Shown one piece after another: positions 2,819-12,536 of a stretch of 30,800 bases of DNA. A program made the position numbers and the translations under genes. Below the pieces are notes generated by a model. It was given only the letters and a program-made list of their open reading frames with translations. It did no database searches and had not been told where the DNA came from. Numbering within the stretch: position 1 is the stretch's first letter; each line of letters starts with the position of its first letter. This DNA comes from a virus: IMG/VR virus record IMGVR_UViG_3300047557_001009, positions 1 to 30,800 of that record; one strand, 5' to 3'.

Positions 2819-3022
2819 ATGAAGCTATCCAGAGATATCTACCCCCAAACCGTCCACACAATCGAAACGTGGTTCGGCACAGATGCGCCGCGCCTGATAT
2901 CGGAAGCAGTTTGGTCCGAACTAATGGAATCGTGGTGCTTCGACTACAGGAAAGCGTTTAGCAGCACAGAAGATATGGTGACGTACTACGTTGACAGAGA
3001 CGGGTACATCACGTTTCTCTAA
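2819..3022 (+). CDS. small hypothetical protein, first of a tandem paralogous pair
   Basis: A 67-residue protein of unknown function. It aligns along most of its length with the next gene product: both have a hydrophobic/charged helix, then a W-SxxM/LM-xxCW-FD core and end in DGYI(T/H). This suggests a tandem duplication. The ATG at 2819 follows GAGGAAAC. Aromatic-rich composition for so small a protein is unusual. No membrane segment or metal-binding motif is visible. Confidence 0.6.
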   Translation: MKLSRDIYPQTVHTIETWFGTDAPRLISEAVWSELMESWCFDYRKAFSSTEDMVTYYVDRDGYITFL

Positions 3023-3038: not shown

Positions 3039-3212
3039 ATGCATAAAACACCAGATCACACCGTGATCAACGCTATTCACCGCCGATTCGACCCTGAGAC
3101 GGCTGCCGATATCATCTCGAAGATGTGGTGGAGCGCCATGAACGGCTGCTGGCACTTCGACCACGCCGGGATGTTATTCGGTGTGGAGGCGGATGGATAC
3201 ATCCACACATAA
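3039..3212 (+). CDS. small hypothetical protein, second of a tandem paralogous pair
   Basis: A 57-residue protein of unknown function, paralogous to the preceding gene product (shared WxxxMNGCWHFDH-type core and DGYI C-terminal end). The start chosen is the ATG at 3039, which follows AAAGGAAC; an in-frame upstream ATG at 2991 would overlap the previous gene and has no ribosome-binding site. The gene's last 30 bases can form a hairpin (GTGTGGA 3181-3187 with TCCACAC 3202-3208). The final A of its TAA stop codon is the first paired base of stem I of the hammerhead ribozyme that follows. Confidence 0.6.
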   Translation: MHKTPDHTVINAIHRRFDPETAADIISKMWWSAMNGCWHFDHAGMLFGVEADGYIHT

Positions 3213-3263
3213 CCGCCTGATGAGTCCAGCAGGACGAAACACGGGGTGTCCCCGTGTCGCGGT
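3212..3263 (+). ncRNA. type I hammerhead self-cleaving ribozyme
   Basis: All parts of the hammerhead are present in order. Stem I: ACCGC (3212-3216) pairs with GCGGT (3259-3263). Core: CUGAUGA at 3217-3223. Stem II: GUCC (3224-3227) with GGAC (3232-3235), loop AGCA. Core: GAA at 3236-3238, with A3239 pairing U3257 (the A15.1-U16.1 pair). Stem III: CACGGGG (3240-3246) with CCCCGUG (3250-3256), loop UGU. Cleavage residue: C3258 in a GUC triplet, so self-cleavage is predicted between 3258 and 3259. Every invariant core base matches. Stems II and III are closed by loops and stem I is open, which is the type I topology. It is co-oriented with the early genes and lies between a stop codon and the next gene's ribosome-binding site, so cleavage would leave a 28-base leader with a 5'-OH on the downstream message and cap the upstream message with stem III. 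Stem I is short (5 bp) and I see no clear tertiary-contact bulge, so the rate in cells is uncertain. Confidence 0.92.
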
Positions 3264-3286
3264 ACAAACCAAACCCAGGAGCAATT

Positions 3287-3619
3287 ATGTACATCAAGAT
3301 CTTCGACGGCGTTGCCGTCATCTTCTGCGAGGAGCATGACCGTCCCTGCTCTAACCCTCAGGGTCACGACTTCAACCCTAACAACGGCGCGATGTTCGGT
3401 GAAAACGGCAACTGCTGCTCCCACTGCGGACACTTCGCCGGGGGGATCGAGTACTTCAGCGCGGCCAACGGTGCCGCAGAGGCCCAGGCCTATGCCCAGG
3501 TCATGCTGGGCGCGACTGGACCCGTTGAGGTGCGCCCTGGTGCCATCGCCCAGGCCAAGCTGCCCATTTGGGCGGACGATATCGAACTGGGCTGCACCAG
3601 TTATGAGGAGGTGGAGTAA
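3287..3619 (+). CDS. hypothetical protein, His/Cys-rich N-terminal half
   Basis: A 110-residue protein of unknown function directly downstream of the hammerhead ribozyme. The N-terminal half has possible metal ligands (FCEEHDRPC near residues 13-21 and NCCSHCGHF near 45-53), suggesting a small zinc fold; the C-terminal half is Ala-rich and acidic. The ATG at 3287 follows AGGAG at six bases. Its mRNA leader after predicted ribozyme cleavage would be only 28 bases and C/A-rich, leaving the ribosome-binding site open. Its stop overlaps the next start (TAATG). Confidence 0.6.
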   Translation: MYIKIFDGVAVIFCEEHDRPCSNPQGHDFNPNNGAMFGENGNCCSHCGHFAGGIEYFSAANGAAEAQAYAQVMLGATGPVEVRPGAIAQAKLPIWADDIELGCTSYEEVE

Positions 3620-4132: not shown

Positions 4133-4352
4133 TCCACCTCTCGACGCTGAAGTCTGCCGCGAGATCGTGCGCGAGATCCTCGACGAAGAGGGTCCGCTCA
4201 CGGTCGGGCAGCTGGCAATCCGCATGGGGCGCGTGTTCCAGGTGAACAGCGCCTACCTAGCGATAACCCTGTGCAAAAAGCGCAGTGGGTTCGCAATCGA
4301 CAACGGCATCGTGTATGCCACAAGAAACATCAGCAAAAGAGGTGCGAAATGA
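4125..4352 (+). CDS. small winged-helix-like hypothetical protein
   Basis: A 75-residue protein. The pattern of helix (EVCREIVREILDEEG), second helix (TVGQLAIRMGRVFQVNS), third helix (AYLAITLCKKRSGF) and C-terminal beta pair (IDNGIVYATR) resembles a minimal winged helix-turn-helix DNA-binding fold. This is a fold inference from residue pattern only. It overlaps its upstream neighbour by 8 bases and its stop overlaps the next start (ATGA). A regulatory role is possible but unproven. Confidence 0.55.
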   Translation: MRNPPLDAEVCREIVREILDEEGPLTVGQLAIRMGRVFQVNSAYLAITLCKKRSGFAIDNGIVYATRNISKRGAK

Positions 4353-6563: not shown

Positions 6564-7442
6564 ATGCTCAACAATAACGCTATCCTCGTTCGCTTCGCCG
6601 TCAGCCAGTGGACGGCCCGGAAGTACGACAAGAAGGCGACCTCTGAGGTCGAAGCCAATCACGGAACCAACGGGGAGGTCGGGCGCTTCAACAAGCAGCT
6701 TGCTGCGAAGAAGTACCTCCAGGAACTCTCGAGCAACATTGCCCTGGCGCGGAAGTTCCACTACGAGCAGACCCTGCCCTGGCTCGATGCGGACGGGGTC
6801 CGCATCCTGCCTACGGCGAACTTCAACAGCTACCAGGAGGGCATGTCTGCCTTCCACTCGAAGCATCAGGCGGCGCTCGACAAGTTCGTGCAGAACTACC
6901 CGGATGTGATCGAGGAGGCGCGGTATCGCCTCAGCGGGCTGTTCGATCCGACCGAGTTCCCCGATGTGCGGGATATCCGCAGCAAGTTCGGGTGGTCGGT
7001 CAGCTTCTCCCCGGTGCCTGAGGCCGGGGACTTCCGGGTGGATCTCCAGCAGTCCATCCTCGACCAGATGGAACGCGACATGCAGCAGCGACTGTCGGCC
7101 AACTACGACAGTGCCGTGCTGGATCTCTTCGAGCGCATCTACGTCCAGACCTCGCACGTTGCCGAGCGCCTGGAGAACTACACGGGTACCCGTGAGGGCT
7201 GCTTCCGCGACAGCCTGATCGAGAACACCGTCGAGCTTGCTTCCCTCCTGCCCCGGCTCAACGTCACGGGTAACACCAAGCTCAACGAACTGGCGCGGCG
7301 CATCGACCAGGAGTTGTGCCAGTACAAGCCTGTTGCCCTGCGAGAGAATGACGCCGCCCGTATCGATGTCGCTGCCCGGGCGAAGTCGATTGCCGAGGAC
7401 GCTGCCGCTATCGCGAAGAGCATGGGCGCTCTGTTCGCCTAA
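6564..7442 (+). CDS. middle protein of the MoxR-VWA operon (unknown function)
   Basis: A 292-residue, largely helical protein with no recognisable catalytic motif. It lies 24 bases after the ATPase gene and 24 before the metallopeptidase-VWA gene, each preceded by an AGGAGA ribosome-binding site. A helical third protein between MoxR ATPase and VWA genes is a recurrent arrangement, where it is thought to be a partner or adaptor. Residues 40-110 (FNKQLAAKKYLQELSSN...LPWLDADGVRILPTANF) look like the best conserved part. The name DUF3150-like is possible but not certain. Confidence 0.7.
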   Translation: MLNNNAILVRFAVSQWTARKYDKKATSEVEANHGTNGEVGRFNKQLAAKKYLQELSSNIALARKFHYEQTLPWLDADGVRILPTANFNSYQEGMSAFHSKHQAALDKFVQNYPDVIEEARYRLSGLFDPTEFPDVRDIRSKFGWSVSFSPVPEAGDFRVDLQQSILDQMERDMQQRLSANYDSAVLDLFERIYVQTSHVAERLENYTGTREGCFRDSLIENTVELASLLPRLNVTGNTKLNELARRIDQELCQYKPVALRENDAARIDVAARAKSIAEDAAAIAKSMGALFA

Positions 7443-7466
7443 CCAAACTACACCAGGAGAACTCAC

Positions 7467-8651
7467 ATGGAAGTCACGATCTACACCCCGTCCACCGATC
7501 AGCAGCGTGAAGCTGCCGCCAAGATCATCCGCCAGAACGTACGCATGGCAATCGGCAACGAACCCTTCTTCGGTTCCATCGCCCTGCGCCTGCCGTGGGT
7601 TGCTGATGACACCTGCCCGACCATGGCGACCGATGGCAAGTGCGTGATCTACAACCCCGCATTTGTCCTGGAGATGAGCGCCGAGGAAGTGAAGGCTGTT
7701 GCGATCCACGAGATCATGCACGTTGCCCTGCTCCATCCTCTCCGGCTGAACGGGCGCGACCCGATGCGTGCCAACATGGCGATGGACTACGCTATCAACC
7801 TCTTGCTGACTGATGCTCAGTACAAGCTGCCGCAGGGGGCGTTGATCGACCGGACGTACGCCGACATGTCCTGGGAGCAGATCTACGATCTCCTTCCTGT
7901 GCAGCCAAAGGGCAAGGGCAAGGGCAGCGGCGATGGCTCTGGCTCCGGTCGCGACTACAGCAACGGCGATGTCCTCGACCCCAAGGGTACTGTCGAAGAG
8001 CGCCAGAAGATGGAGGAGGAGATCAAGACCATCACGACCCAGGCTGAGTCCAACGCCCAGGCGGCTGGCAAGATGCCGGGTAACCTGCGAGACGTTCTCC
8101 TCAAGTCCCGCGAACCCGAGGAGGACTACCGCCACCTCTTCGAGAAGTTCGTGGCACCGATCTACCCCCGCGACTACACTTGGCAGCGCCCCTCGCGCCG
8201 CTTCATCGGGCAGGACATGTACCTGCCGAGCATCCTCAAGGATGGCGTGGGTGAGTTGATGGTCGCGGTCGATACCTCCGGCTCTATCTCGCATGACGTG
8301 CTGGAGAACTTCGTCGGCATGATCAACCACTTCCTGACTCGCGTCAAGCCCGAGAAGCTCCACGTTGTGTACTGCGATGCCTCCGTGTACAAGCATGACC
8401 AGTTCAAACCGGGAGCGCCGATGGAACTGGACGGGTGCAAGGTGCAGTCTGGCGGCACTCGCTTCTCTCCGGTGTTCAAGTACGCCCAGGACAACGAGAT
8501 CAAGCCCAAGTGCTGCGTGTACCTGACGGACCTGGAGTGCTACGACTTCGGGCCGGAGCCGGAGTACCCGGTGCTGTGGATGCAGTACGGCAGCTTCAGG
8601 GGCGAGGTTCCCTTCGGGCAGATTGTGAAGATCAAGACCGCCAGAGCGTAA
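7467..8651 (+). CDS. putative metallopeptidase with C-terminal VWA domain (DUF2201-like)
   Basis: A 394-residue two-domain protein. The N-terminal domain has the zinc-protease motif HEIMH (residues 81-85), H90 and D107 as further candidate ligands. A Gly/Ser/Lys linker (about 145-165) and a charged helix lead to a C-terminal von Willebrand A-like domain with the metal-ion-dependent adhesion motif DTSGS (269-273). This is the DUF2201 arrangement, known as the VWA partner of MoxR ATPases. The VWA domain probably recruits a target protein for the ATPase encoded two genes upstream. Whether the N-terminal site is an active protease or only a structural zinc site cannot be told. The start follows ACCAGGAGAACTCAC. 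Confidence 0.85.
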   Translation: MEVTIYTPSTDQQREAAAKIIRQNVRMAIGNEPFFGSIALRLPWVADDTCPTMATDGKCVIYNPAFVLEMSAEEVKAVAIHEIMHVALLHPLRLNGRDPMRANMAMDYAINLLLTDAQYKLPQGALIDRTYADMSWEQIYDLLPVQPKGKGKGSGDGSGSGRDYSNGDVLDPKGTVEERQKMEEEIKTITTQAESNAQAAGKMPGNLRDVLLKSREPEEDYRHLFEKFVAPIYPRDYTWQRPSRRFIGQDMYLPSILKDGVGELMVAVDTSGSISHDVLENFVGMINHFLTRVKPEKLHVVYCDASVYKHDQFKPGAPMELDGCKVQSGGTRFSPVFKYAQDNEIKPKCCVYLTDLECYDFGPEPEYPVLWMQYGSFRGEVPFGQIVKIKTARA

Positions 8652-8682
8652 CAACAAACACCAGGGGACTTCAGGAGACTTT

Positions 8683-9636
8683 ATGATTACCGACTACACC
8701 GCAATGCTATCCATGGGGAGGGCGCAAGTCCTCCTCCATGACGGGACCACCGTCGAAAGAGACATTGTGTACAGCAAGAAGTGTGCCGTGTTTATCCAAG
8801 GGAAGCGGTCTGACTTCTCATATCAGAGGATCTTGTGGGGTGGTGGGCATTGGGTGGCTGGAACCAACAACACCCCAAACGAGGGTGAGTTGCAGAGATT
8901 GCTTATCAATAGATTCTTGGAAACAATTCCCTCTTCTGATTGCGAGACTAGGATTCGGTCTTTAGTTTTCTTCAGTTCCCATGCATTCGGCTATGCCTCT
9001 TACGGCGGTTTAAGGGCAGACTTGGTCGAGAAAAGACTTGGAGCAATCAAGTCTGGCTACAAGAGGCTTGGGTTCAAGCCACACGCAGGGCGATACAATG
9101 CGCCGCACTACACCCTCCGCAAAGACCGCTTCACCCAGCGCCAGAGGGACTACCGAAGACTGAAAGCCAAGCGCAATGCAGGTCTGGCATCAATCGTGCA
9201 ATCCCTGGTCAACGCGTACAGCGGCAACTGCGCCGACTTCAGCCACGGCTCTTCGACCTCTCCTTCGGACTACTGCAAGGGCTGGACTCTGCGCTTCTCC
9301 GATATGAAGATCGTTGCGTACGGGGACGGCAGCTTGGTCAAGAGAGAGGTTGACCTCCTCCCCTTCGACCTCATGTCTCCCTCTTTTGTGGCGCTATTCG
9401 GAGTCCGCAATGTGTTCTGCGCCAACATCGTGGAGGAGACTGGTGATACGATATGCCTCCAGGTGTTCGGCAAGAACTCTAAGCCCAAGGGGTACGTCTG
9501 CGCCGAGAAGAACGGCAAGGGCCACATCTTCAAGCAAGAAGACCCGGCCAAGTGGATCAGCCTCCGCAAGTACGGGCTGGACGACATCGGCGCTACCAAG
9601 GCCGAAGCCTACGCCCGCATGCTTGCGAAGCCCTAG
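8683..9636 (+). CDS. hypothetical protein
   Basis: A 317-residue basic protein of unknown function. The N-terminal third looks beta-rich (AQVLLHDGTTVERDIVYSKKCAVFI...), the middle is Arg/Lys-rich (residues 125-165, RKDRFTQRQRDYRRLKAKR), suggesting nucleic-acid contact, and the C terminus is a mixed domain. The start has TTCAGGAGACTTT upstream. It lies 31 bases after the VWA gene and probably belongs to that transcript. It ends only 4 bases from the convergent primase-helicase stop codon, with no terminator between them. Confidence 0.65.
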   Translation: MITDYTAMLSMGRAQVLLHDGTTVERDIVYSKKCAVFIQGKRSDFSYQRILWGGGHWVAGTNNTPNEGELQRLLINRFLETIPSSDCETRIRSLVFFSSHAFGYASYGGLRADLVEKRLGAIKSGYKRLGFKPHAGRYNAPHYTLRKDRFTQRQRDYRRLKAKRNAGLASIVQSLVNAYSGNCADFSHGSSTSPSDYCKGWTLRFSDMKIVAYGDGSLVKREVDLLPFDLMSPSFVALFGVRNVFCANIVEETGDTICLQVFGKNSKPKGYVCAEKNGKGHIFKQEDPAKWISLRKYGLDDIGATKAEAYARMLAKP

Positions 9637-9640
9637 CGCC

Positions 9641-11443
9641 CTACAGTCCGAAGGTGTCTTCTTCACCAGCAAACATGTCCTGTATCGAAGCCCGCTCGTC
9701 CACTCTCGGAAGCTCGTAGTATGTACTCGTGGGGATGTCGTACTTCAGGCGCGTCATCCCTTGCTTCCCTACCCACTTGAAGCGGCACTTCCAGGAGTGA
9801 ATCTCGACGTACCCGTCCATGTCCTTCCGGTGTACAGTCAACCCGCAGTCAGTCTTGTTGTACCAATGTGCGCTTCCGGAGATGTCGTATCCAGTCGGCA
9901 CCGGGATTCTCCCTCCGTCCCGCATCATCTTCGCCGGATGCGCCACAAACCAGACGTGTACCTGATACGTCTTTGCAAACGCAGACACACGGGACAGCAT
10001 GTTGGACACAGCCTCTGTCTCGTTCGCATCTTTACTGCGCTGCACCTCGATACAGTTGTAGGGATCTATTACCAACCCGTTCACACCGAATCTAATCACG
10101 GCAGCGTATGCTCTATCCAGCAGACTGTCGAGCGTAGGCAGGTCCTTGGACGAGGCAAAGTCCAGGAAGATGAAGTGATCCTGGCACCACTTGTGCGCCC
10201 TCTTCGCTTCGTCGATTGTCATACACCCCGGCCATCCCTGAAAGAAAGGCTTCTTCATGTACATCTCAGACAGCTTCGCCAGATGCTTCGCAGGTTCGTT
10301 CTCCATGCTGGCAACCGCAAACTTCCACCCGTTGCGCTGCGCCAGATTCACCATGATCTGGTCGAGGAAGTTGCTCTTGCCGGATGAAGGTACACCAGTC
10401 ACCACCGTCATCTGTCCCGGCGCTACGGTATAGATCTCGTCCACGTTGGCGAACCCAGTACTCTCACCCTTACCGTCTCCTCGTAGGAATAGATCCATCA
10501 CCTGCTCGTAGTAGTGATCGGCAGTGTGCAGCGCCGTCAACGGAAGGGGCTTGGCTTTGTCCAGGATGTTCTGCAACGCATCCCTGCCGTGCTTCACAAG
10601 GACATCGTTCATGTCCTTGCAGTCTGAGGGGTACTCCAGGGTAAGGCACTTCGAGCGCCCAAACCTGCGGGTCAGTTCTTCTTGCAGTGCCTTCCCGGGG
10701 CCATCGTTGTCGGTCGCCAGGACGTAGGTCCTGAACCGCTCCAGGAAGTCCTGCAACTCTGCGAACCAGGAGAACCGCTGGCTGGAGTTCTTCTCCCCCT
10801 TCGCTGGCGCTCCAGAAGGGACAGACACCCAGTTGGAAGCGCCAACCTCAGCAATACTCAGGGCATCCATCTCGCCCTCGCAAATCACAAGCGGCAGTTC
10901 GTAGTCGAACTTCTGCTGCAACCCAAACAGCAACCCTCCAGCGCCAGGATCTTGTGTGAACTTCTTCTCCCTGACTGAGCGGTACTTGGAGGATATGAGA
11001 GTGCCGGATAGATCGTAGTAGGGGAAGGCGATACACCGTGTCTCTCCTCCCTCGCGGAAGAACTTGGTGACACTGAAGAGCTTTGCTTCGGTCGCCGTCT
11101 TCAGTGAGATACCCCGCAGCTTCAGGTACTCCAGGTGGTCAAGCTCCAGCCGAACCTCTCCAAGCACAGGCTGTGGCGCTGGCTCCTCCGCAAATAAAGA
11201 ATCGAGGTCTTCAATGTTCATGTCGTCGTCTCCCATATCTCCGATCACCCCACTCGCTCCGCAGTGGTGGCAGCAGTACACCGCGCCCCTGTCCCCGTGG
11301 GACCAGGACAGGACTGGCTCTTTGGAGTTCCTCCGGCTGGGGCTGCATGCAGGACAAGGTGTTCTCCATGATCCACGGTTCATCTCCATGAACTGCTCTG
11401 CCAGTCTTCGTAGTTCCTGCGTCTCCATCTCTAAAGGGTACAT
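9641..11443 (-). CDS. DNA primase-helicase (T7 gp4-like)
   Basis: A roughly 600-residue fusion of primase and hexameric replicative helicase. In order: a zinc-binding domain CPAC...CCHHCG (about residues 30-61), a TOPRIM primase domain with VICEGEMDAL (about 186-195) and LATDNDGPGK (about 242-251), and a RecA-like DnaB-type helicase with Walker A GVPSSGKS (350-357) and Walker B GLVIDPYN (about 456-463). It unwinds the fork and lays down primers. Starts at 11443 (MYPLEMETQ, weak GAGTG) and 11428 are both possible. It is on the minus strand while genes on both sides are plus, so it must have its own transcript, with a promoter near 11450-11510 overlapping the divergent RHH gene promoter. No clear minus-strand promoter was found. 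Confidence 0.92.
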   Translation of the reverse strand: MYPLEMETQELRRLAEQFMEMNRGSWRTPCPACSPSRRNSKEPVLSWSHGDRGAVYCCHHCGASGVIGDMGDDDMNIEDLDSLFAEEPAPQPVLGEVRLELDHLEYLKLRGISLKTATEAKLFSVTKFFREGGETRCIAFPYYDLSGTLISSKYRSVREKKFTQDPGAGGLLFGLQQKFDYELPLVICEGEMDALSIAEVGASNWVSVPSGAPAKGEKNSSQRFSWFAELQDFLERFRTYVLATDNDGPGKALQEELTRRFGRSKCLTLEYPSDCKDMNDVLVKHGRDALQNILDKAKPLPLTALHTADHYYEQVMDLFLRGDGKGESTGFANVDEIYTVAPGQMTVVTGVPSSGKSNFLDQIMVNLAQRNGWKFAVASMENEPAKHLAKLSEMYMKKPFFQGWPGCMTIDEAKRAHKWCQDHFIFLDFASSKDLPTLDSLLDRAYAAVIRFGVNGLVIDPYNCIEVQRSKDANETEAVSNMLSRVSAFAKTYQVHVWFVAHPAKMMRDGGRIPVPTGYDISGSAHWYNKTDCGLTVHRKDMDGYVEIHSWKCRFKWVGKQGMTRLKYDIPTSTYYELPRVDERASIQDMFAGEEDTFGL

Positions 11444-11474
11444 CAGGCACTCGAAAAAAGGAACACATTTGCGC

Positions 11475-11503
11475 TTGTCAGCATTCGCGCATTCCTGTAT
11501 CCT
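11475..11503 (+). promoter_or_regulatory. sigma70-type promoter with predicted leaderless start
   Basis: TTGTCA (11475-11480), 17-base spacer, TATCCT (11498-11503). The A of the RHH gene's ATG (11510) is 7 bases after the -10 box, exactly where transcription would begin, so the message would be leaderless. The TATCCT box is the same as in the promoter at 5416. Confidence 0.5.
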
Positions 11504-11509
11504 GTCTTC

Positions 11510-11764
11510 ATGGCGCGGCTCACAGTTGAAATCCCCGACAAGCTGCATCGGGATTTGAAATTAGCAGCGATTGATAGGAGTACTACAGTCAAGAGACTAG
11601 CAACAGATGCCATCTACAATGAGATCCTTCGCGAACAGACACGACCTGCCGGAACCAGTGTGCGCGGTGCTGACAGCGGACAGCTACGACCGGGGCCGTG
11701 CAAACATATCGGTCACGGGGTTGATTCAATCCCCACGGGTTCGGATCCTGAGCAAGAGTGGTAA
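11510..11764 (+). CDS. ribbon-helix-helix DNA-binding protein (possible repressor)
   Basis: An 84-residue protein whose first 45 residues, MARLTVEIPDKLHRDLKL followed by AAIDRSTTVKRLATDAIYNEIL, are a typical ribbon-helix-helix fold (Arc/CopG/MetJ class): one beta strand for operator contact and two helices for dimerisation. The remaining 40 residues overlap the next gene in another frame and look non-natural, so the protein may really end as a short domain or be joined to the exonuclease by frameshifting. The start codon has no ribosome-binding site but sits at the predicted +1 of the promoter at 11475. Placed between divergent transcripts (primase-helicase and recombination genes), it is well sited to regulate both. 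Confidence 0.65.
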   Translation: MARLTVEIPDKLHRDLKLAAIDRSTTVKRLATDAIYNEILREQTRPAGTSVRGADSGQLRPGPCKHIGHGVDSIPTGSDPEQEW

Positions 11765-12536
11765 CCGTTTCGACGTAGCAGACATGGTCTGGTCTTCGTT
11801 CGGGACTGCGTGGCACTCACATGCCCAGGCCGCGCTTCAAGACTACAACCCCGATTGGATCGTCGAAGAACGGTACTTCGTCGATGTCAACGGGTGGATC
11901 GTGTCCGGTCAGGCGGACCTCCAGACTACCAAAGATGACGGCACGATTCACCTCTGGGACTGGAAGGTTACGACCACCACGAAGGTCGCCAAGGGGCTGG
12001 CCGCAGAGTGGGAGCAGCAGTTGAACTGCTACGCCTATCTGATCCGGCGCTCTACGGGGAAGATCGTCACCAGCGCCACGGTCCTGGCAATCCTGCGAGA
12101 CTTCAAGCGCAATCTCTTCAAGAAGCAGGAGCATGGTCAGTGTGCCGTGAGTGTAATGAACATCAACCTGTGGCCCAAAGATCAGCAGGAGTCCTACATC
12201 AAGCAGCGTGTGGCGCTACATCAAGAGGTGGAGATGTCGCACGCAATGGGAGAGAAGCTGATACACTGCACTGACCTGGAGCAGTGGCGCAAGCCGAACT
12301 CTTTTGCGGTGATGGTCGAGGGCAAGAAGCGTGCCAAGATGATCTGCGAAACCGAGACGGAAGCAGAGTTCCAGGCAAGTATGGTGCAGGGCGGATACGT
12401 CGAGAAGCGGTTCGGAATCCCGCTCAAGTGCCAAGCAAACTACTGCGGGGTCGCCCACGATTGCGACCAGAGGCAAAAGGAAAAGCTGTACAAAATTGCA
12501 GGAGGAAAGGATTCAGATGACCAATACGGGGACTAG
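11619..12536 (+). CDS. PD-(D/E)XK exonuclease (Cas4/RecB-like)
   Basis: A roughly 305-residue nuclease of the PD-(D/E)XK superfamily. The catalytic core is D in SGQADLQ followed by WDWKVT, the DxK half of the motif, in the middle of the protein. The end has three Cys (KCQANYCGVAHDC); together with C near the N terminus (EPVCAVLT) they echo the four-Cys iron-sulphur site of Cas4/AddB-type nucleases, an inference. It would resect double-strand ends to give single strands for the ERF annealing protein encoded next, whose start it overlaps by 20 bases. The start is uncertain: ATG 11619 is used, with 11607 and an in-frame GTG further in as alternatives, none with a good ribosome-binding site. It overlaps the RHH gene by 146 bases. 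Confidence 0.85.
   Translation: MRSFANRHDLPEPVCAVLTADSYDRGRANISVTGLIQSPRVRILSKSGNRFDVADMVWSSFGTAWHSHAQAALQDYNPDWIVEERYFVDVNGWIVSGQADLQTTKDDGTIHLWDWKVTTTTKVAKGLAAEWEQQLNCYAYLIRRSTGKIVTSATVLAILRDFKRNLFKKQEHGQCAVSVMNINLWPKDQQESYIKQRVALHQEVEMSHAMGEKLIHCTDLEQWRKPNSFAVMVEGKKRAKMICETETEAEFQASMVQGGYVEKRFGIPLKCQANYCGVAHDCDQRQKEKLYKIAGGKDSDDQYGD

Follow-up and report, generated by a model that had tools for sequence, protein, structure and literature searches.

A type I hammerhead ribozyme in contact with a stop codon between co-directional phage genes and its probable role in transcript cleavage

The stretch of DNA analysed here in full, in the following referred to as the window, is a virus contig of 30.8 kb (IMGVR_UViG_3300047557_001009), which encodes a terminase small subunit, an exonuclease, an Erf-like annealing protein, an integrase and a Holliday junction resolvase as well as a dUTPase, an endolysin and structural genes. 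A primase/helicase-like gene (PHROG 239, E 1.6e-85) occupies positions 9641-11548 on the minus strand, with plus-strand gene blocks on either side. No plausible gene is apparent in the region 650-1740, which spans about 1.1 kb and features many short repeats (for instance GATACATG, AGTAAGCCAG and CAGAGC/TGAA); it is partly conserved in the related contigs L122, L127 and L130 and possibly represents an origin or promoter region. Two small plus-strand genes form a tandem paralogous pair (30% identity, E 0.001), the first encoding 67 amino acids (2819-3022) and the second 57 (3039-3212, TAA stop at 3210-3212). Further downstream on the same strand, the gene P0001 (3287-3619) encodes a protein of 110 amino acids from a small Cys/His-rich protein family, for which neither a match to Pfam or a known family nor a relative in named phages was found; likewise, a megablast search for related phages yielded none.

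Between these genes, positions 3212-3263 of the plus strand form a complete type I hammerhead ribozyme with an intact core. Base 3212 is both the last base of the TAA stop codon and the first base of stem I, as a first-pass annotation of the sequence had already recognized together with the sense-strand location. The same annotation had placed the ribozyme between two gene blocks, and it does separate the tandem paralogous pair from a run of same-strand small genes. The leader of 28 nt with a ribosome-binding site which had been proposed there was recovered as well: it extends from the predicted cut to the ATG at 3287 (3259-3286) and includes the segment ACAAACCAAACCCAGGAGCAATT (3264-3286, +) with the Shine-Dalgarno sequence AGGAG at 3277-3281. 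That the transcript is an early one, as in the proposed "early operon", we infer from the gene content. Neither a promoter-like nor a terminator-like site was found within 3213-3286, nor was any terminator-like site on the plus strand between 600 and 5600. Accordingly, the reading of 3213-3286 as a promoter was rejected, and so was that as an intrinsic terminator, given that stem III is followed by CGCGGU and not by a U run. An inverted repeat resembling GUCCAAAUUUGGAC recurs in this phage group shortly before the ribosome-binding sites of several genes (at about 1471 in L122, 3977 in L124, 1486 in L125 and 5485 in the window).

All parts of the element lie on the plus strand. The 5' strand of stem I (ACCGC, 3212-3216), located by fold, motif and covariance model, is followed by the core segment CUGAUGA (C3-A9, 3217-3223; motif and covariance model) and by the stem II hairpin GUCC-AGCA-GGAC (3224-3235), whose strands 3224-3227 and 3232-3235 enclose the loop AGCA. 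The second core segment GAA (G12, A13 and A14, 3236-3238) was again assigned by motif and covariance model. It leads to the stem III hairpin ACACGGGG-UGU-CCCCGUGU (3239-3257; strands 3239-3246 and 3250-3257, loop UGU) and further to H17, a C at 3258, where the cut is predicted at 3258/3259 from the place in the hammerhead consensus. With the 3' strand of stem I (GCGGU, 3259-3263), the downstream RNA would begin, carrying a 5'-OH. Thus, the element features the CUGANGA core, G12-A14, the A15.1-U16.1 pair and H17 of type I hammerheads as well as three helices around the core with an open stem I. The perfect stems of 5, 4 and 7 bp described by the first-pass annotation were confirmed, with stem III amounting to 8 bp when the A15.1-U16.1 pair is counted (5/4/8 bp).

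The identification as a complete type I hammerhead, with all core elements at the places proposed before, is borne out by the motif, by RNAfold and by a covariance model. The minimum free energy structure is exactly that of a type I hammerhead (-25.1 kcal/mol, z -2.3). The core pattern alone is expected by chance 0.03 times per window. When 20 Mb of sequence were simulated with the dinucleotide content of the window, no complete type I motif arose, even with loose stem limits. An independent model, for which 43 type I hammerheads of other phage loci were used and the family of the window was excluded, scored the element with 41.9 bits (E 1e-11).

The search with Rfam hammerhead models suggested by the annotation did list the element, but below the gathering scores: 21.6 bits for RF00163 (Hammerhead_1, type I; gathering score 34) and 26.1 bits for RF03152 (RAGATH-1; gathering score 56.3), the best Rfam model by bits. 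At gathering score, no match to Rfam was obtained anywhere in the window. This result is uninformative because phage hammerheads mostly score below the threshold; an Rfam score was reached by only 1 of 30 structurally complete phage type I/III hammerheads from 12 loci. That the element falls short of the RF00163 gathering score reflects the threshold set in the database and not the RNA itself. With Hammerhead_1 it shares the core, the three stems, the open stem I and an NUH cleavage triplet. RAGATH-1 resembles the element in being a type I-like hammerhead, but it requires that stem I be preceded by a conserved hairpin, whereas the corresponding stretch of the window is coding and unrelated in L122 and L125; together with the low score, this led to the rejection of a RAGATH-1 identity. 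Nearly all of the phage hammerheads examined were missed by the curated scores of RF00163, RF00008 and RF02276, and published hammerhead counts that rely on Rfam annotation may be considerable underestimates.

The ribozyme is kept in two relatives, L122 and L125, in which the downstream protein is 88% and 69% identical, respectively, to that of the window. The leader at 3264-3286 is kept there as well and is absent in L123, L124 and L126. DNA similarity to L122 and L125 starts exactly at 3212, the first base of stem I; the upstream gene of both is unrelated to that of the window and ends within the hammerhead core, whose UGA serves as its stop codon. The differences are confined to loop II (AGCA in the window, AGAG in L122, GCA in L125), to loop III and to position 7 of the core, a free position occupied by C in L125, the core of the window and that of L122 being the same. 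The pairing strands are invariant in all three and thus provide no covariation within the family. For fast cleavage at low Mg2+, hammerheads require that loop II engage stem I or its flanks in a tertiary contact. By eye, no base-pairing partner of loop II was seen in the constant stem I flanks of the window, L122 and L125, and since loop II varies while the flanks are constant, a pseudoknot between both is not supported, as far as Watson-Crick pairing is concerned.

At the equivalent position, L127 (ATPase 96% identical) carries a type I hammerhead (4262-4316) directly after a TAA stop, with stem sequences different from those of the window and the core change U4C. This change lowers activity in vitro and still sustains viroid infection (PMC3088659), and its pattern is accompanied by full stems in 15 of 16 viral matches. 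Phage hammerheads with U4C and otherwise complete stems were seen in L290-L300, L302-L304, L112 and L127 (4262-4316). Judged by the ATPase, L123, L124 and L126 are close relatives too (L126 with 94% identity) and have no ribozyme directly at the downstream gene of the window, so that the ribozyme is dispensable in these phages.

The copy of the window is of type I, while relatives feature the circularly permuted form (type II, RF02276 Hammerhead_II) at an equivalent kind of junction. In L219, L223 and L274, which are more distantly related, a type II hammerhead lies directly before a relative of the downstream gene (45-49% identity over 51 residues); the three upstream genes are unrelated, and the UAG stop of each overlaps the ribozyme. 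Altogether, eight contigs were found to contain the downstream gene family, three of them with a type I and three with a type II hammerhead directly in front, and the remaining two (L123 and L124) with a type II copy two small genes upstream of the family gene. Further type II copies occupy neighbouring borders of the same early region in L122 (before a DUF7227 gene), in L123, L124 and L126 and in L130. In all of these, loop I is complementary to the 3' tail, which matches the report on type II hammerheads by Perreault et al. (2011; PMC3088659), and the copy of L123 and L124 passes the RF02276 gathering score (38.8 versus 37 bits). On account of the full type II layout and this complementarity, the copies of L124 and L130 were rejected as decayed type I remnants. 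Weak matches of the type I model in L123, L124 and L126 (13.9 bits), situated just upstream of the type II copy and overlapping its stem III, were not accepted as type I either. The stem III sequence GAAACACGGG...CCCGUGUC occurs in the type I copy of the window and likewise in some of the type II copies. Judged from these sequences, it may reflect common descent of the segment through recombination; a coincidence of 4-5 bp is possible as well. L239 and L219 contain two similar type II copies each.

The arrangement is not as singular as it had first been taken to be, given that the core pattern CTGATGAGTCCNNNNGGACGAAAC matched in at least 120 viral stretches and that clustered phage hammerheads were described in 2011 (PMC3088659). 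Among the matches listed, 108 complete type I and 80 complete type III hammerheads were recognized by script, and a second pattern yielded 79 of type II. Placement statistics were based on about 190 phage hammerheads after removal of similar upstream sequences; sense ORFs were considered from 60 codons upwards, and their stop was counted if no more than 12 nt separated it from the hammerhead 5' edge. Within a survey framed by fixed search patterns (with a fixed stem II), mechanical ORF calls and partly removed shared descent, such a stop was present in 58% of the type I and in 85% of the type II hammerheads (among the matches listed); for the antisense strand the figure was 11-14%, and for randomly chosen positions 6-8%. 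Part of this closeness could stem from the dense arrangement of genes in phages. In type III, the upstream stop lies about 35 nt from the 5' edge, with 3% found within 12 nt (among the matches listed), and the gap is filled by a separate strong hairpin; the 40-nt upstream stretches fold below -10 kcal/mol in 83% of type III, 20% of type I and 9% of controls. The cut is predicted after stem III in types I and II, and near the 5' edge, not after stem III, in type III. Owing to this type-specific placement of cut and hairpin, the predicted upstream product consists of stop codon, hairpin and 3' end in all three types. Distances from cut to ATG in the survey are approximate, as the mechanical choice of starts gave 77 instead of the true 28 nt for the window.

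Several observations were made alongside the survey. A recurring GUGUCUUCAAAGACAC hairpin lies directly upstream of type III hammerheads in L008, L012, L017, L025, L026, L029, L042, L043, L051 and L052, contigs whose leaders are mostly devoid of a Shine-Dalgarno sequence; in the loci scanned, it matched no Rfam family at gathering score. In L041, six type I hammerheads with near-identical stem I sequences are located on one strand within about 5.3 kb (6752-12067). L125, a relative of the phage of the window, contains a candidate HDV-like ribozyme at 1420-1481 (+; RF02682, 38.8 bits, gathering score 44, E 0.001), which follows a TAA stop together with a GGGGCAAUGCCCC hairpin. Paenibacillus hammerheads were rejected as relatives by a contig scan with stem I and core, the motif alone being in common.

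The sequence itself shows the complete motif, its conservation in two relatives with changes confined to free positions, its contact with the upstream stop codon, a leader behind the predicted cut that looks functional, and a type II hammerhead before the corresponding gene of three further relatives. The type I hammerhead of the window likely cuts a co-directional phage transcript at 3258/3259 and would thereby constitutively split it into units. After transcription, the ribozyme would fold and cleave itself. The upstream RNA would then end in the stop codon, stem II with GAA, the 8-bp stem III hairpin and a 2',3'-cyclic phosphate, and the downstream RNA would begin with a 5'-OH and carry the 28-nt leader with its own ribosome-binding site. 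The hairpin would provide a terminator-like 3' end without a terminator and should slow 3' exonucleases. That stem III would cap the upstream RNA had been predicted before, and the relatives and about 190 other phage hammerheads agree with it. In consequence, the early transcript would be divided constitutively into units whose levels can differ. Because a terminating ribosome would cover the 5' strand of the stop-contacting motif, the cut would occur after the ribosomes have left, which suggests that ribosomes leaving the upstream gene time the folding of the ribozyme; this timing and the stabilizing effect of the hairpin end are what we infer from the arrangement. Cleavage in vitro has been published for tandem hammerheads of phages, and for one set of them also cleavage in E. 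coli (PMC3088659). As a generalization, phage hammerheads of any topology might be stop-codon-anchored devices for making mRNA ends, with a type I/II swap at one junction keeping the function; we give this view about an even chance. Cut by such an anchored device, the upstream mRNA would terminate in its stop codon and a hairpin.

The hammerhead repeats could instead be cassette borders, i.e., DNA recombination joints by which small early genes are exchanged, with cleavage being tolerated or secondary. The break of homology exactly at the 5' edge of the ribozyme, the one ribozyme-plus-gene unit behind three unrelated genes in L219, L223 and L274 and the two similar type II copies in each of L239 and L219 would fit such joints. 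Nevertheless, recombination alone would neither keep core and pairing intact in copies that have diverged widely (pairing in 99.8% of cells, with covariation, the type I/III survey copies being preselected for pairing) nor give type-specific stop distances (types I and II versus type III), and joints of this kind are therefore an unlikely explanation. Gene shuffling by repeated ribozyme sequences alongside cleavage is possible. A regulated switch, in which a ligand, a protein or translation controls cleavage so that the timing of expression differs between the upstream and the downstream genes, seems quite improbable. As read from the sequence, the stop contact would let ribosomes of the upstream gene delay folding; however, there is no extra domain, loops are 3-4 nt in the window, L122 and L125, and no conserved alternative pairing partner was found. 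Likewise, neither a match to a riboswitch family nor a conserved sensor domain joined to a stem of the element was detected. Constitutive cleavage is the simplest reading because loops II and III of the window comprise 4 and 3 nt and a sensor domain is lacking, and the "post-transcriptional switch" of the first-pass annotation was abandoned on the same grounds. Very improbable is an inactive remnant or plain 3' hairpin whose stem III matters and whose catalysis does not, for which the U4C core of L127 at the equivalent position and the missing pairing contact of loop II might speak, but against which stand the core, which L122 shares with the window and from which L125 departs at the free position 7 alone, the permuted yet complete hammerheads of other relatives and the viroid infectivity retained with U4C (PMC3088659).

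With constitutive cleavage as the preferred reading, the element belongs to a published kind. Clustered hammerheads of types I, II and III between co-directional genes of phages and prophages were described by Perreault et al. (2011; PMC3088659), who proposed a processing of long phage transcripts; the setting and the proposed role are the same as here. In the haloviruses HF1 and HF2, a hammerhead variant precedes an early helicase gene by 13 nt (PMC3088659). In the main text of that publication, a text search found no mention of stop codons, and the upstream stop contact, the companion hairpin of type III and the exchange of types I and II were not found described. A search of the open-access literature for hammerheads, phages, stop codons and upstream genes returned general reviews only; within this literature, neither the anchoring at stop codons nor the exchange of topologies at a single junction seems to have been reported. 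The role of hammerheads in bacteria and phages is a stated open question (review PMC6155905). The stop contact and a hairpin always just upstream of the cut make this role concretely and cheaply testable. Moreover, two hammerhead topologies, type I and type II, serving one orthologous gene border point to selection on the cut itself.
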